A DNA stretch of 40,373 nt from contig SLOP01000002.1 in assembly GCA_007132465.1 (NCBI GenBank), positions 1 to 40,373 of the forward strand, read 5' to 3'. This document shows, in pieces, positions 1,273 to 28,732 of the stretch. The stretch is from Candidatus Izemoplasma sp. (lineage in GTDB: Bacteria > Bacillota_I > Bacilli_A > Izemoplasmatales > Izemoplasmataceae). Numbering within the stretch: position 1 is the first letter of the stretch; every line of letters starts with the position of its first letter. The translations under genes and the position numbers were made by a program. The notes under the pieces were generated by a model. The model made no database searches, had not been told where the DNA came from, and saw only the letters and a list, made by a program, of their open reading frames with translations.

Positions 1273-3342
1273 ATGCCACGTGCATTCAGCCTAGAAAAAA
1301 CGCGCAACATCGGCATTATGGCGCACATCGATGCAGGCAAAACGACGACGACAGAACGTGTTCTTTATCATACCGGTAAAATCCACAAAATGGGCGAAAC
1401 CCATGACGGTGCTTCCCAAATGGACTGGATGGAACAAGAACAAGAACGGGGAATTACCATCACATCCGCCGCCACCACGGCGTTTTGGAAAGATCACCGT
1501 GTCAACATCATCGACACGCCCGGCCACGTCGACTTCACCGTCGAAGTATCTCGGTCACTCCGCGTGCTCGACGGCGCCGTCACCGTGCTTGATGCGCAAG
1601 CCGGCGTCGAACCCCAAACAGAAACTGTTTGGCGTCAAGCCACCGAATACCGCGTCCCCCGCATCGTGTTCGTCAACAAGATGGACAAGATTGGTGCGGA
1701 CTTCGCATTCAGCCTTAAATCGATCCGTTCACGCCTCGGCGTGAAAGCCGCCGCCATCCATTGGCCGATTGGCGCAGAATCACAATTTGAAGGAATCGTC
1801 GACATCGTTGAAGGCAAAGCTTATCTGTTTGATGGCGCCGCCGATGAAGTCGCTAAAGAAGTGCCGATTCCTGAGGAGTACCAAACCATCGTTGATGAAA
1901 AACGCGGCGAACTCATTGAAGCCCTCGCTGACTTCAACGAAGACATGATGATGCTTTACCTCGAGGATGAACCCGTGCCCACCGAGATGATTAAAACTAC
2001 GTTGCGTACGGCCACCCTAAGCGTTAAATTTTTCCCCGTTTTGTGCGGGAGCGCCTTTAAAAACAAAGGCGTCAAGTTGATGCTTGACGCGGTCATCGAT
2101 TACCTGCCTGCACCCACCGACGTGCTTGAAGTCAAAGGCACGCTCAATGATGGCAGTGAAGTCCGCGTTTCCAGCGACGACAGCGAAAAATTTTCTGCCC
2201 TTGCCTTTAAAGTCATGACCGATCCCTTCGTTGGGAAACTGACCTTCTTCCGGGTTTACTCCGGAACGATGAAAAAAGGATCATACATCATGAACAACAC
2301 CAAAGGCAGTAAAGAACGCGTTGGTCGCATCTTGCAGATGCATGCCAACCACCGCGAGGAAATCGACACCGTCTACGCCGGCGACATCGCCGCCGCGGTC
2401 GGCCTAAAAAACACCTCAACCGGTGACACCCTCGCCCAAGAAGGCTACCCGATCATCTTAGAGAAAATGAACTTCCCTGAGCCAGTCATCAGCGTCGCCA
2501 TCGAGCCTAAGTCGAAAGCCGATCAAGATAAGATGGGCGTCGCGCTTCAAAAACTAGCAGAAGAAGACCCGACTTTTCGAACCTACACCGACGATGAAAC
2601 CGGACAAACCATCATTGCCGGCATGGGAGAGCTTCACCTCGACATCATCGTCGATCGGATGAAGCGAGAATTCAAGGTCGTCGGCAACGTCGGCGCGCCA
2701 CAAGTCAGCTACCGAGAAACCTTCACCACCCCTGCTGACGTAGAAGGCAAGTTTATTCGCCAATCCGGCGGACGCGGCCAATACGGTCACGTCAACATTC
2801 GCTTCGAACCCAACCCCGGAAAAGGCTTCGAGTTCATCGACAAAGTCGTCGGTGGGGTCGTCCCAAGAGAATACATTCCAGTGGTTGCCAAAGGACTTGA
2901 AGAAGCATTGCAGCACGGCGTCATCGCCGGGTATCCAATCATCGACATCAAAGCAACGCTCTACGACGGGTCATATCACGATGTCGACTCCTCGGAAGTG
3001 GCCTTCAGAATTGCCGCATCCATGGCGCTTAAACAGGCTAAAGATGTCTGTAAAGCGATTTTGTTGGAACCCATCATGAACGTGGATGCCATCGCCCCCG
3101 ATGACTACCTCGGCAACGTCATTGGCGACCTCACCAGCCGCCGTGGCAAAATCGAGTCGCAAGAACAACGCGGCAACGCCCATCAAGTTTCGGCCAAAGT
3201 GCCCTTGTCGGAAATGTTTGGATACGCCACAAGCTTGCGTTCGAACACGCAAGGACGTGGGAACTACACGATGCAGTTTTCACACTACGAAGCGTGCCCG
3301 AAATCGATTGCCGAAGAAATCATCAAGAAACGCAACGGGTAA
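1273..3342 (+). CDS. fusA: Elongation factor G
   Basis: This translational GTPase drives tRNA-mRNA translocation. The 689-residue length is normal for EF-G. GTPase motifs are all present: AHIDAGKT (17-24), RGITIT (59-64), DTPGH (81-85) and NKMD (135-138). Domains II to V follow, including the domain IV loop region around [19 protein letters not shown] lies close upstream and the gap to rpsG is 15 nt, so the two are cotranscribed. A separate promoter for tuf begins only about 10 nt after the stop codon. No paralogue features (such as TetM or RF3) are seen. Confidence 0.98.
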
Positions 3343-21679: not shown

Positions 21680-21704
21680 CGAGCGTGTCGTCTTGACACG
21701 CTCG
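21680..21704. terminator. Hairpin overlapping the topA -35 box
   Basis: CGAGCGTGTC (21680-21689) and GACACGCTCG (21695-21704) form a 10-bp perfect stem around GTCTT. No T-tract follows. The -35 hexamer of topA is formed by the end of the loop and the 3' arm. It could be a weak terminator for prmC or an operator for topA. Confidence 0.5.
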
Positions 21705-21722
21705 ACTTGTGTGTGGCATAAT
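21693..21722 (+). promoter_or_regulatory. Promoter of topA
   Basis: TTGACA (21693-21698), an 18-nt spacer and CATAAT (21717-21722). topA promoters in other bacteria respond to DNA supercoiling, and an 18-nt spacer is compatible with that, but this is inference. Confidence 0.72.
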
Positions 21723-21744
21723 ACAACGGACTGGAGGCGATGGG

Positions 21745-23814
21745 ATGAAAAAACTCGTCATCGTTGAATCACCGAGCAAATCAAAAACCATCAAACAATA
21801 CCTTGGTGACGACTACGACGTGCAGTCGTCCAAAGGCCATATCCGCGATCTGTCGATTTCCAATGTCGGCGGGCTTGGTCTTGATATTGAAAACCGATTC
21901 AAACCACGCTACGACATCATTAAGGAAAAAGAAAAAACGGTTCGCGATTTGAGAAAAGCAGCAAAAAGCGCCGACGAAATCTACCTTGCCACCGACCCCG
22001 ATCGCGAAGGAGAAGCCATCAGCTGGCACCTCAAGGAAGTCCTTGATCTGAAGGGGAAACCGACGTTCCGCGTCATCTTTAACGAAGTGACCAAACAAGC
22101 GGTTCAATCGGCATTTGAACATCCCCGTGAGATCGACACACACCTTGTATCCTCACAAGAAACGCGACGCATTTTGGATCGCATCATCGGCTTTAAACTC
22201 AGCAAACTTCTGCAAAACAAAATCCGTTCAAAATCAGCCGGTCGCGTTCAAAGCGCAGCCCTGAAACTCATCGTCGAACGTGAAAAAGAAATTGAAGCTT
22301 TTACCTCCGAAGAATACTGGAAAGTCAAGGCGCTTTTTGACGCGTTCGAAGCCGAACTTTCAAACATCGGCAAAAAACGCGCCAAGCTTCACAACGAAGA
22401 AGAAACCGATGCGTTGCTAAAGACCATCGATAAGACCTTCACCGTGGCATCGATTAAAAAGCGTAGCCGTAACCGCGCTCCTAAGCCACCCTTCACCACA
22501 TCGTCGCTCCAACAAGAATCCTCAAACAAACTGAACTTCAACGGCCAAAAAACCATGATGATTGCCCAAAAACTGTACGAAGGCATCGACCTTGGCGATG
22601 AAACCGTCGGGTTGATTACGTACATGCGAACCGACTCCACACGCCTGTCCGGTGCGTTCATCGCCCCGGCCAAACAAGTAATCCATGAACGCTACGGCGC
22701 TGAGTACGTCGGCGGTTCGCGCATCAAGGCCGTCGCTAAGAACGCTCAAGATGCCCATGAAGCCATTCGACCGACCGACGCTCACATAGACCCTGAATCG
22801 ATTAAAAACCAACTGACTCGTGACGAATATCGGTTGTATAAAATCATCTACTACCGCGCCGTTGCCTCATTGATGAAACCGGCCCAACTAGCCTCAACCA
22901 CCATGAAACTCAGCACCGGTGAGGCGACCTTTAAAGCACGGGCTCAGGCATTGACATTTGACGGGTACCTTAAAGCATACGGCGCCTATGAATCCATCGA
23001 CGCCACCACCCTTCCGGATTTCAAGGAAGGACAAACCATCGAGGCGGCCGCGCTTGAGAAGTCACAGCACTTTACCCAACCACCGGCGCGCTACACCGAG
23101 GCTAAACTCATCAAGACCATGGAAGAACTCGGCATTGGTCGCCCAAGCACGTATTCGCAAACCGTCGTCACCCTTAAAAAACGCAAATACGTGACCATCA
23201 AAGATAAGAAGTTTACGCCCACCGACCAAGGAAGACTGACGATTGAAAAACTCGATCAGTTTTTCGACCGCATCATCAGCGTCGATTACACAGCGAAGAT
23301 GGAGTCGGTGCTCGACGATATCGCCAAAAACGAAGCTGAGCAGACCGACATTGTCAGCGAATTTTATCACACCTTTATTCCGCTTGTCGAAAAGGCCAAT
23401 CAGCACATGGAAAAAGAAGCGCCAAAAACCACCGGCGAAACCTGCCCGAAATGCGGCCGCCCGATGGTCTATCGCGAATCCCGCTATGGCACCTTTGAGG
23501 CATGCAGCGGATTCCCTGAGTGCAAACACATTAAGAACGACGAGACACAGCAAACCGACCTCGAAAAAACCGATATCACATGCCCGTCATGTGGCAAAGG
23601 CCACATCGTCGAACGCATCGCCAAACGCGGCAAGAACAAAGGCAACCGCTTTTACGCCTGCGACACCTTCCCGCGATGCAAGCATATCATGCAAGGACGG
23701 CCGATTGGTGAGGCTTGCCCACAATGCGGGAAACCACTTGTCGAAGACGACGAAGGCAGCGTCCGCTGCGATGATGTGAAAGGCTGCGGCTACCTGCGAG
23801 ATCAAGGAAAGTAA
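21745..23814 (+). CDS. topA: DNA topoisomerase I (type IA)
   Basis: This enzyme relaxes negatively supercoiled DNA through a 5'-phosphotyrosine. The product is 689 residues from ATG 21745. The Toprim domain begins LVIVESPSKSKTI and includes TDPDREGEA. The catalytic tyrosine is in LITYMRTDSTR near residue 292. Three C-terminal zinc-ribbon repeats each start CPxCG (CPKCGRP, CPSCGKG, CPQCGKP), and the third is shorter. GGAGG (21733-21737) is 7 nt before this ATG. The longer in-frame extension to 21709 would start within the promoter. The start context is GGGATG. Confidence 0.96.
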   Translation: MKKLVIVESPSKSKTIKQYLGDDYDVQSSKGHIRDLSISNVGGLGLDIENRFKPRYDIIKEKEKTVRDLRKAAKSADEIYLATDPDREGEAISWHLKEVLDLKGKPTFRVIFNEVTKQAVQSAFEHPREIDTHLVSSQETRRILDRIIGFKLSKLLQNKIRSKSAGRVQSAALKLIVEREKEIEAFTSEEYWKVKALFDAFEAELSNIGKKRAKLHNEEETDALLKTIDKTFTVASIKKRSRNRAPKPPFTTSSLQQESSNKLNFNGQKTMMIAQKLYEGIDLGDETVGLITYMRTDSTRLSGAFIAPAKQVIHERYGAEYVGGSRIKAVAKNAQDAHEAIRPTDAHIDPESIKNQLTRDEYRLYKIIYYRAVASLMKPAQLASTTMKLSTGEATFKARAQALTFDGYLKAYGAYESIDATTLPDFKEGQTIEAAALEKSQHFTQPPARYTEAKLIKTMEELGIGRPSTYSQTVVTLKKRKYVTIKDKKFTPTDQGRLTIEKLDQFFDRIISVDYTAKMESVLDDIAKNEAEQTDIVSEFYHTFIPLVEKANQHMEKEAPKTTGETCPKCGRPMVYRESRYGTFEACSGFPECKHIKNDETQQTDLEKTDITCPSCGKGHIVERIAKRGKNKGNRFYACDTFPRCKHIMQGRPIGEACPQCGKPLVEDDEGSVRCDDVKGCGYLRDQGK

Positions 23815-23859: not shown

Positions 23860-23888
23860 TTGACAGGTTTAGGTCTCTGTGATACCAT
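23860..23888 (+). promoter_or_regulatory. Promoter of a candidate small RNA
   Basis: Perfect TTGACA (23860-23865), a 17-nt spacer and TACCAT (23883-23888, 4 of 6 matches). It lies about 45 nt after the topA stop. Transcription would start near 23895. Confidence 0.55.
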
Positions 23889-23894
23889 AAAGTT

Positions 23895-23990
23895 GCCATC
23901 GAGAGATGGTGTAACATCCCTTACATAGCATGGTGAATATTCGTATTCACACATCCCCTTCCTTAATCCGCCGCAAGGCGGATTTTCCCT
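23895..23990 (+). ncRNA. Candidate small regulatory RNA between topA and ftsY
   Basis: About 96 nt lie between a promoter and an intrinsic terminator. Four hairpins follow in tandem: CCATC-GAGA-GATGG (23896-23909), TGTAA-CATCCC-TTACA (23910-23925), GTGAATA-TTCG-TATTCAC (23933-23950, a UUCG tetraloop) and the terminator AATCCGCC-GCAA-GGCGGATT. The motif CATCCC(C)TT occurs twice, in the second loop (23915-23922) and in the single-stranded stretch at 23952-23960. Repeated unpaired C-rich motifs are the seeds of RsaE/RoxS-type small RNAs of Bacillota, which pair with ribosome binding sites. No protein frame with a ribosome binding site is present, and the conserved SRP RNA loop is absent. Confidence 0.5.
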
Positions 23991-23995
23991 TTTCA
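23965..23995 (+). terminator. Intrinsic terminator of the small RNA (or of topA)
   Basis: An 8-bp stem AATCCGCC/GGCGGATT with a GCAA tetraloop (23965-23984) is followed by TTCCCTTTT. It is the only terminator between topA and the ftsY promoter, so it may also end the topA transcript. Confidence 0.8.
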
Positions 23996-24007
23996 TGGGG
24001 ATTTTCT

Positions 24008-24036
24008 TTTTGTCTCGCTGCGTGCTATGGTATAAT
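24008..24036 (+). promoter_or_regulatory. Promoter of ftsY-ylxM-ffh
   Basis: TGGTATAAT (24028-24036) is an extended -10. The -35 region TTTTGT (24008-24013) is weak. Transcription should start near 24043. Confidence 0.65.
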
Positions 24037-24064: not shown

Positions 24065-25033
24065 GTGGGATTTATTCAAAAATTGTTTCAATCGAAAAAA
24101 GCGAAACAGCGTGCCCAAAAGTATCGAATCGGCATGGAGAAAACGCGTGAACGCGTTTTTGGACGTCTTGATGAGTTGCTTGCCGCTGGCGCGCCCATCG
24201 ATGAGCCGCTCTTTGAGGAAATCGAAGAAATCTTTATCGCCGCCGACATGGGCGTTGATGTCGTTTTATCGCTTGTCGAGCACTTACGAAACACGGTCGC
24301 GCTTAAACGCATTCGTGATGCCGCTAGCCTCAGGGAAGAGATTGTTGAAGCGATGTTTGAACGCTACGTACAAGGCGACATTGTCGACACGAACCTCGAC
24401 GTCGATCATCCGTTGTCGGTGTTGCTGTTTGTGGGCGTCAACGGCGTCGGCAAAACCACAACCATCGCTAAGGTCGCGCATCTTTTGCAGGCGCAAGGGA
24501 AGCGCGTAATGATGGTGGCGGGCGACACGTTTCGAGCTGGCGCGATCAATCAACTCCGTGTTTGGAGCGAACGCGTGGGGTGTGATTTCTTTGACAAACC
24601 CCAAGGCATTGACCCTTCGAGCGTGATGTTCGATGCCATACAAAAAGCGAAAGCGACCGACGTCGATGTCCTGCTTTGTGACACAGCCGGTCGACTACAA
24701 AACAAAACCAACTTGATGAAAGAACTTGAGAAGATTCATCGCGTCATCGGACGAGAAATCCCTGACGCTCCTCATGAAACGTTGTTGGTGTTGGACGCCA
24801 CAACGGGCCAAAACGGCATGAGCCAGGCGAAAGTGTTTAACGAAGTCACACGCTTAAGCGGCGTGGTGTTAACCAAACTCGACGGCACTGCCAAAGGCGG
24901 CATTGCCTTGGCCATCAAGGAGACGCTCAACATTCCAATTAAACTCATCGGGCTTGGCGAGAAACTCGATGACCTCGATTACTTCGATATCGAGGAATAC
25001 ATCTACGGCATGTTTTCGGATTTAGTCACATGA
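24065..25033 (+). CDS. ftsY: Signal recognition particle receptor FtsY
   Basis: This membrane-associated GTPase docks SRP-ribosome complexes at the translocon. The NG domain occupies nearly the whole 322 residues: GVNGVGKT (124-131), DTAGRLQNKTN and TKLDGTAKGG. The long acidic A domain of some bacteria is missing, as is common in Gram-positives. The frame stays open to 23930, but that stretch contains the terminator and promoter. GTG 24065 after GGGGGGTGA gives MGFIQKLFQ. ATG 24049 is a possible but nearly leaderless alternative. It shares an ATGA overlap with ylxM. Confidence 0.93.
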   Translation: MGFIQKLFQSKKAKQRAQKYRIGMEKTRERVFGRLDELLAAGAPIDEPLFEEIEEIFIAADMGVDVVLSLVEHLRNTVALKRIRDAASLREEIVEAMFERYVQGDIVDTNLDVDHPLSVLLFVGVNGVGKTTTIAKVAHLLQAQGKRVMMVAGDTFRAGAINQLRVWSERVGCDFFDKPQGIDPSSVMFDAIQKAKATDVDVLLCDTAGRLQNKTNLMKELEKIHRVIGREIPDAPHETLLVLDATTGQNGMSQAKVFNEVTRLSGVVLTKLDGTAKGGIALAIKETLNIPIKLIGLGEKLDDLDYFDIEEYIYGMFSDLVT

Positions 25034-27972: not shown

Positions 27973-28000
27973 AAGAGAAGCAGGGAAAGGAGTGAACGGG

Positions 28001-28732
28001 ATGGAATATTTCACCACATTAATCACGTTTTTGCTCGGGTTGTTGTCCGGGTTCATTCTGTTTGCCCTCGTTTATGTCTATTTCGTCATTCGCGGTCGCG
28101 GCATTGATAAGGCGTGGCGAGAGCGTCATGCGACCGATATAGGGGACGAGGAACTCAAAGGCATCGTCACCGCGAAACAAGCTACCTACAAACGCCTGCG
28201 GAAAAAAGGTCAAAGCCCGACCCGCTTGGTGCTTGATCTTTCAATTGAAATGGTGGATGAAATTGCGCGCGCTTACTTCCCTAAATCAAAATACCCAACG
28301 CTCGAACTCAGCGTTGATGAAATGTTGTTACTGAATCACTACATCGCCAAACGCATCGAAAAAATTCTCGACCAGCCGGTGCTGCGAAATACCCGCAACC
28401 TTCGGGTGACAAAAATTGTGCGAATGTATGAAACACAACGGGCCATTTCCCAAGCGAAAATCGTGAAAGCGGCGCGCAGTAAAGCGGTGAAAAAAACCAT
28501 TAAATACACCATGGGTGCGATCAACTACATGAACCCGGCTTACTGGTTTCGCAAACTCGTCATCAACAAGAGCGTTGACCTTGTGACCACGCACATCGCC
28601 TTGATGGCGCTTGCCATCGTCGGCGAGGAAACCATCAAGGTGTACTCGAAAAAACTCTTCGACAAAGACGTTGAACTCGACTTGGTCGACAAAGAACTCA
28701 GAGCGCTCGAGGCCGACGATGATGACGATTAA
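28001..28732 (+). CDS. Membrane-anchored protein of unknown function
   Basis: I do not recognise this 243-residue protein. Residues about 5-31 form one strong transmembrane helix. The rest is charged and mostly helical, with a moderately hydrophobic stretch near 190-206 (LVTTHIALMALAIVGEE) and an acidic DDDDD end. A basic middle (KAARSKAVKKTIKY) could contact nucleic acid or membrane. AAAGGAGTG lies upstream of ATG 28001, whose context is GGGATG. It begins a run of tightly packed genes, overlapping the thioredoxin-like gene by about 14 nt. Confidence 0.75.
   Translation: MEYFTTLITFLLGLLSGFILFALVYVYFVIRGRGIDKAWRERHATDIGDEELKGIVTAKQATYKRLRKKGQSPTRLVLDLSIEMVDEIARAYFPKSKYPTLELSVDEMLLLNHYIAKRIEKILDQPVLRNTRNLRVTKIVRMYETQRAISQAKIVKAARSKAVKKTIKYTMGAINYMNPAYWFRKLVINKSVDLVTTHIALMALAIVGEETIKVYSKKLFDKDVELDLVDKELRALEADDDDD

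Follow-up and report, generated by a model that had tools for sequence, protein, structure and literature searches.

The small RNA RsaE/RoxS is not known to be encoded in the topA-ftsY interval, and its transcription is controlled by Rex and by ResDE/SrrAB. In 2017, RoxS was reported to be, besides 6S, the only trans-acting sRNA common to B. subtilis and S. aureus (PMC5419742). In B. subtilis, FsrA and CsfG also carry C-rich regions, with a predicted structure similar to that of RoxS (PMC8216469). The C-rich sRNAs of Bacillota studied so far pair with mRNAs through such regions, and RoxS/RsaE and FsrA use theirs on B. subtilis mRNAs (PMC8216469, PMC5419742); RosA and RsaI are sponge RNAs whose G-rich regions bind C-rich sRNAs (PMC8216469). 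One survey of structured RNAs, covering 26 genomes, describes an Acholeplasma motif upstream of aroF; topA and ftsY are not named in its main text. Our search of the open-access literature, where absence is not proof, yielded no description of an sRNA between topA and ftsY or of any sRNA from Izemoplasma.

We analysed a stretch of 40,373 nucleotides (the window), which is contig 7 of a 1.43 Mb Candidatus Izemoplasma genome, and followed up the original prediction that it encodes a small regulatory RNA with repeated unpaired C-rich motifs, a reading strongly supported by class-wide conservation, covariation, a conserved promoter and a terminator. The sRNA unit lies on the plus strand in the gap between the topA stop (23814) and the ftsY start (24065), flanked in conserved synteny by topA (21745-23814, plus strand) upstream and ftsY (24065-25033, plus strand) downstream, the latter with its own -10 box TATAAT near 24031. 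The proposed TTGACA promoter (23860-23888, plus strand; 10 of 12 matches) was confirmed, with the -35 box at 23860-23865, a 17-nt spacer and a TG-extended -10 box TACCAT at 23883-23888. Its distance to hairpin 1 is fixed in relatives, the -10 box ending 5 nt before the hairpin in 69 of 83 homologues, and the TG is present in 71 of the 83. Transcription is predicted to start at about 23894-23895, directly at hairpin 1 (23895-23910, plus strand; GCCAUC-GAGA-GAUGGU, from fold and covariation) at the RNA 5' end; given the fixed distance, hairpin 1 would cap this end and is expected to protect it against 5' decay. C-rich region 1 follows (23912-23929, plus strand), a segment predicted from its conservation to be unpaired and to serve in pairing, which reads UAACAUCCCUUACAUAGC in the window versus ACUUAUCCCUUACAUAGC in most relatives. 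Hairpin 2 (23930-23954, plus strand; AUG GUGAAUA-UUCG-UAUUCAC A CAU, from fold and covariation) has its UUCG-capped core at 23933-23950 and an extension at 23930-23932/23952-23954. It leads into C-rich region 2 (23951-23965, plus strand; ACAUCCCCUUCCUUA), likewise a predicted pairing segment on conservation, whose CAU may pair with the AUG at 23930-23932. The intrinsic terminator (23965-23993, plus strand) consists of a stem-loop at 23965-23984, AAUCCGCC-GCAA-GGCGGAUU, and a T-rich tail. A weak second hairpin (23985-24011, plus strand; UUCCC...GGGGA, then a T-run) is a possible back-up terminator or alternative 3' end, and the sRNA may end near 23990 or 24010; a similar CCC...GGG with T-run follows the terminator in many topA-ftsY copies and is missing from others. 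The fold in the window reaches -34.3 kcal/mol (z -3.6), and none of 200 shuffles was as good. Further upstream (21680-21722), prmC is followed by a strong hairpin resembling a terminator (21680-21704), which overlaps a TTGACA (21693) that probably belongs to the topA promoter, so that terminator and promoter would share sequence.

Compensatory changes in the stems, which a covariance model had been proposed to reveal, were found in relatives. Using alignments that were fitted to the model and hence lean towards it, we obtained 98.1% paired cells at the order level (84 sequences, 75 distinct), with both sides changing in 21 of 25 pairs and 235 compensatory cells against a shuffle mean of 47.6, a value reached by none of 500 shuffles, and 97.6% paired cells class-wide (38 sequences), with both sides changing in 22 of 25 pairs and 220 compensatory cells, again reached by none of 500 shuffles; when the class-wide pairing was slid along, paired cells dropped to 32-43%. 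The raw sequences show the same complementary changes, with hairpin 1 variants such as CCATCGAGAGATGG, GCGACTTAGTCGC, GCAATCGAAAGATTGT and GTGGTAGAAATACCAC. Among relatives, both sides change in all seven helix pairs of hairpin 1 and all eight pairs of the terminator; in hairpin 2, 99% of the cells are paired in the order-level set and both sides change class-wide in six of the seven inner pairs. Three of the four hairpins originally predicted are conserved, namely the 5' hairpin, the middle hairpin and the terminator. The fourth, GUAA-CAUCCC-UUAC, occurs in the fold of the window species and not in that of relatives (ACUUAUCCCUUAC), so that both CAUCCC copies are normally free of pairing; the two motif sites themselves exist (CATCCC at 23915-23920, CATCCCC at 23952-23958), and the supposed loop position of one of them is not conserved. 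Hairpin 2 keeps its arms with a loop variable in length and sequence, the UUCG cap being present in the window and not conserved elsewhere. Since the loop length varies, no reading frame is kept across this hairpin, and a small peptide starting from the internal AUG was rejected. The prediction of an intrinsic terminator without a protein gene held: the terminator pairs covary and no conserved reading frame was found in the sRNA region.

The class-wide structure begins with a short 5' hairpin, followed by C-rich region 1 between hairpins. In the order-level set of copies of the type found in the window's own family (f1), the unpaired C-rich segments are the most conserved parts, above the stems, with a mean pairwise identity of 95% for C-rich region 1 (97% in its core) and, rounded, 100% for C-rich region 2; the terminator reaches 80%, hairpin 1 61% and loop 2 37%. 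The nearly invariant segments are (C)UUAUCCC(U/C)UACAUA and ACAUCCCCUUCCU, the latter practically invariant in f1-type copies and at 85% class-wide, and the core common to the class is UAUCCC(C/U)UA and (A)UCCCCUU. Stems kept by shape and single strands kept by sequence form the pattern expected of an antisense RNA. The invariance reaches past the C-runs (ACAUAGCAUG), more than a simple 7-nt seed would account for; one conserved partner, or a protein, could account for it.

By comparison among genomes, the existence of the topA-ftsY sRNA is near certain: it has a promoter of its own, three stem-loops that covary and two unpaired segments with almost no variation. An antisense mode is likely. 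We consider it probable that the RNA represents a new family of Hfq-independent C-rich antisense sRNAs, about 100 nt long, independently transcribed, stable and trans-acting. The stems would act as spacers and end-protectors displaying the two C-rich segments. Several mRNAs would be bound by these segments, without Hfq, at G-rich stretches in the Shine-Dalgarno region or at the 5' end, which would keep ribosomes off or change the decay of the mRNA, as with RsaE/RoxS. Copies on integrative elements and a plasmid might reinforce this regulon or disturb it.

Hfq was not found in 24 of 25 related genomes, that of the window included, with positive controls. The single Hfq (G014:C109:1347-1535; L316) lies in a MAG with 4% contamination and may be foreign. 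The motif GGGATG, originally proposed as a pairing partner, is present at topA (21742-21747) and at 27998-28003, where the gene at 28001 starts; topA was rejected as a target through this motif, which the window's topA alone carries among the relatives compared. Perfect 11-nt complements of the segments outside sRNA genes are rare. When 808 gene starts from two genomes were ranked by duplex energy, there was no excess over shuffled seeds, and no convincing conserved target pair emerged from these partial genomes (2 x 400 kb). A lead at the rnf operon (rnfE and rnfA starts in G020) was not upheld in 15 relatives.

The missing conserved target in the partial genomes would also fit an RNA that mainly binds a protein or the ribosome, by sequestration or by anti-Shine-Dalgarno mimicry through CCUUCCU, and does not act on selected mRNAs; two long, nearly invariant single-stranded segments are in line with this, and a protein might bind the repeated AUCCC motif. 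We nevertheless regard such a role as unlikely, as the core motif is short and changes from family to family, reading UUUCCCU/ACCCUUCCU in family f3, and as the C-rich loops of the Bacillota sRNAs studied act by mRNA pairing (PMC8216469, PMC5419742).

Still less credit is due to the idea that the RNA is a divergent RsaE/RoxS orthologue derived from one ancestral C-rich sRNA of Bacillota, which we judge improbable. RsaE was indeed the best-scoring related family, and the two RNAs share the logic of repeated C-rich segments plus a terminator, the topA-ftsY sRNA having, like RsaE/RoxS, at least two unpaired C-rich regions with the last one before the terminator. The Rfam scan of the window, which was to cover the RsaE and SRP RNA models in particular, nonetheless gave zero matches at gathering scores, SRP RNA included. 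At a relaxed threshold only sub-threshold matches appeared, the best being RsaE (RF01820) at 18.1 bits, where the gathering score is 79 (E 1.6, 501 bases); here the hairpin and C-rich region of the RsaE model were aligned to GUGAA...UUC-CAUCCCCUU. Moreover, the hairpin order differs, C-rich region 1 is not enclosed by a large 5' stem-loop, and RsaE scored above the cut-off in 0 of 296 genomes of the class, with a positive B. subtilis control. The one weak RsaE match in the class (L167) lacks C-rich segments and does not represent the topA-ftsY sRNA. Because the tests of score, structure and range fail, RsaE/RoxS is an analogue and not a demonstrated relative; the original assignment to the RsaE/RoxS type stands as an analogy in logic and is not supported as a membership. 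To the extent that Rfam models FsrA and CsfG, neither gave a match in the same scan of the window. The statement that no known RNA has such a hairpin order agrees with the lack of an Rfam match and of any description in the open-access literature.

Nearly all 'Candidatus Izimaplasma'-type genomes have a homologue. When 40 relatives were searched at the DNA level, the gene was recovered in all other f1 genomes except one (E 1e-60 to 1e-24), and the covariance model placed it in 47 of 49 f1 genomes, in 60 of 90 order-level genomes and in additional families of the class. With a broader model, 37 of 392 genomes of a phylum sample were positive, all within the same class; most matches outside the order came from family f12, and the homologues in Acholeplasmataceae and other families of the class are more diverged. 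Acholeplasmataceae bacterium SMBSF03 (probably G139:C2) belongs to f12, as does a genome with a 1,496,992-bp contig that we take to be A. laidlawii PG-8A. An exact-pattern search of named genomes matched 57 stretches, with record titles naming Izimaplasma, Izemoplasma, Mollicutes, Tenericutes, Mycoplasmatota, Acholeplasmataceae/Acholeplasmatales and Bacilli/Bacillales MAG. In four families (f1, f3, f7 and f12) topA and ftsY flank the main copy, and the covariance-model search found no copy in f2. Six f3 genera (L292, L293, L298, L299, L301, L304) keep the topA-ftsY gap with no trace of the sRNA in it; some of these gaps hold a terminator-like hairpin only, and f3 is patchy. One f18 genome (L160) has two sRNA copies less than 700 bases apart (2004-2120 and 2548-2640, minus strand). 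A diverged copy at L079 (2020-2132, minus strand) keeps CAUCCCCUUCCU and has lost C-rich region 1, with CUUUUUCAUAGC in its place, which may reflect a functional split or decay. A minus-strand match at L035 is the palindrome of hairpin 1 and was left out of the copy count, and L068 is a fragment that covers no more than the 3' part of the sRNA.

With main copies between both genes and a terminator before the ftsY start, the sequence could be read as nothing more than the 3' end of topA with its terminator, or as a leader that attenuates ftsY, with no separate RNA. This is very improbable: a conserved promoter directly precedes hairpin 1, the -10 box of ftsY follows the terminator, the conserved parts are the unpaired segments and not the terminator alone, and copies exist elsewhere without topA or ftsY.

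These extra copies have intact C-rich segments and different stems, and were found on four IMG/VR contigs, in chromosomal islands and on the 93-kb plasmid CP017949.1 of Tenericutes bacterium MO-XQ, where no annotated feature lies under the match. Copies outside the topA-ftsY gap keep their own promoter and terminator in the absence of topA or ftsY. Several (L143, L144, L145, L146, L087, L089, L108, L080) lie 60-70 nt after two tandem serine recombinases with Resolvase and Recombinase domains and just before tRNA genes (tRNA-Leu, tRNA-Cys), tmRNA genes or 3'-end-like repeats, and look like the ends of integrative elements or phages; the element-end repeats resemble tRNA 3' ends and lie outside the RNA gene. 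That the sequence is instead a DNA element, an attachment or recombination site placed between the recombinases and the tRNA or tmRNA ends, is scarcely credible, as the topA-ftsY copy is vertical and syntenic, the stems covary as RNA, and the mobile copies keep their promoter with the repeats outside the gene.

Mobile-type sRNAs also occur without an adjacent recombinase (L110/L026 in zrk2, L106, L082), near a cation-efflux gene in L106 and L082, which suggests cargo-carrying islands at tmRNA/tRNA sites. Two copies occur in strain zrk2 of family f3, a diverged one of the f3 type at topA-ftsY (L190) and, next to tmRNA and smpB, one resembling those of f1 (L026/L110), so that copies appear to move between families. 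In f1, a second chromosomal copy is often found after a large putative lipoprotein gene (L102, L113, L137, L093, L033, L035, L084, L128), for which the one tested, in L102, had no Pfam match. A TMEM164-like gene lies on the other side of the second copy in L102, L105 and L137, and lipoprotein gene, sRNA and TMEM164-like gene form a possible conserved unit. It is tentatively proposed that wall-less bacteria and their relatives share the RNA as a core sRNA across the class, and that phage-like elements and plasmids target its regulon by carrying copies that mimic or override the host RNA. Through the mobile copies, interference with a host regulon at the RNA level could be tested directly.

As a probable new family of C-rich antisense RNA, an sRNA that keeps its place and its pairing segments across several families would offer a tractable handle on post-transcriptional control in Hfq-less, genome-reduced bacteria. 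The putative hosts include wall-less marine bacteria, Acholeplasma laidlawii and two cultured strains of the Izemoplasma group. Xianfuyuplasma coldseepsis zrk13 (CP048914, 1,958,905 bp) and Hujiaoplasma nucleasis zrk29 (1,808,583 bp) are cultured, with public RNA-seq (PRJNA664657, PRJNA669477 and PRJNA669478 for zrk13; PRJNA672795, PRJNA750283 and PRJNA751724 for zrk29). Contig G087:C1, taken to be zrk13, carries sRNA copies at 83809-83914 (plus strand; mobile type), 413309-413417 (minus strand) and 1345905-1346013 (plus strand), and contig G028:C1, taken to be zrk29, at 800020-800125 (plus strand) and 1089240-1089344 (minus strand). For A. laidlawii a transcription start site map with 607 starts is published (PMC5138195), and the predicted sRNA start would lie near 352,880 (plus strand) on the 1,496,992-bp chromosome.

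Among described systems, RsaE/RoxS of Staphylococcus and Bacillus resembles the topA-ftsY sRNA in being about 100 nt long and intergenic, in its several C-rich segments with (A)UCCCCUU, in the succession of hairpin, C-rich single strand and terminator, and in being expected to act without Hfq. The topA-ftsY sRNA differs in placing C-rich region 1 between two hairpins, whereas the RsaE consensus encloses it in a large 5' stem-loop, and furthermore in its locus, its bacterial class and its copies on mobile elements. It shares C-rich regions with FsrA and CsfG, which belong to other taxa, and CsfG, unlike the topA-ftsY sRNA, is under sporulation sigma factors. RosA and RsaI are, like it, stand-alone sRNAs in the same kind of network, but they bear the G-rich regions where the topA-ftsY sRNA bears C-rich ones.
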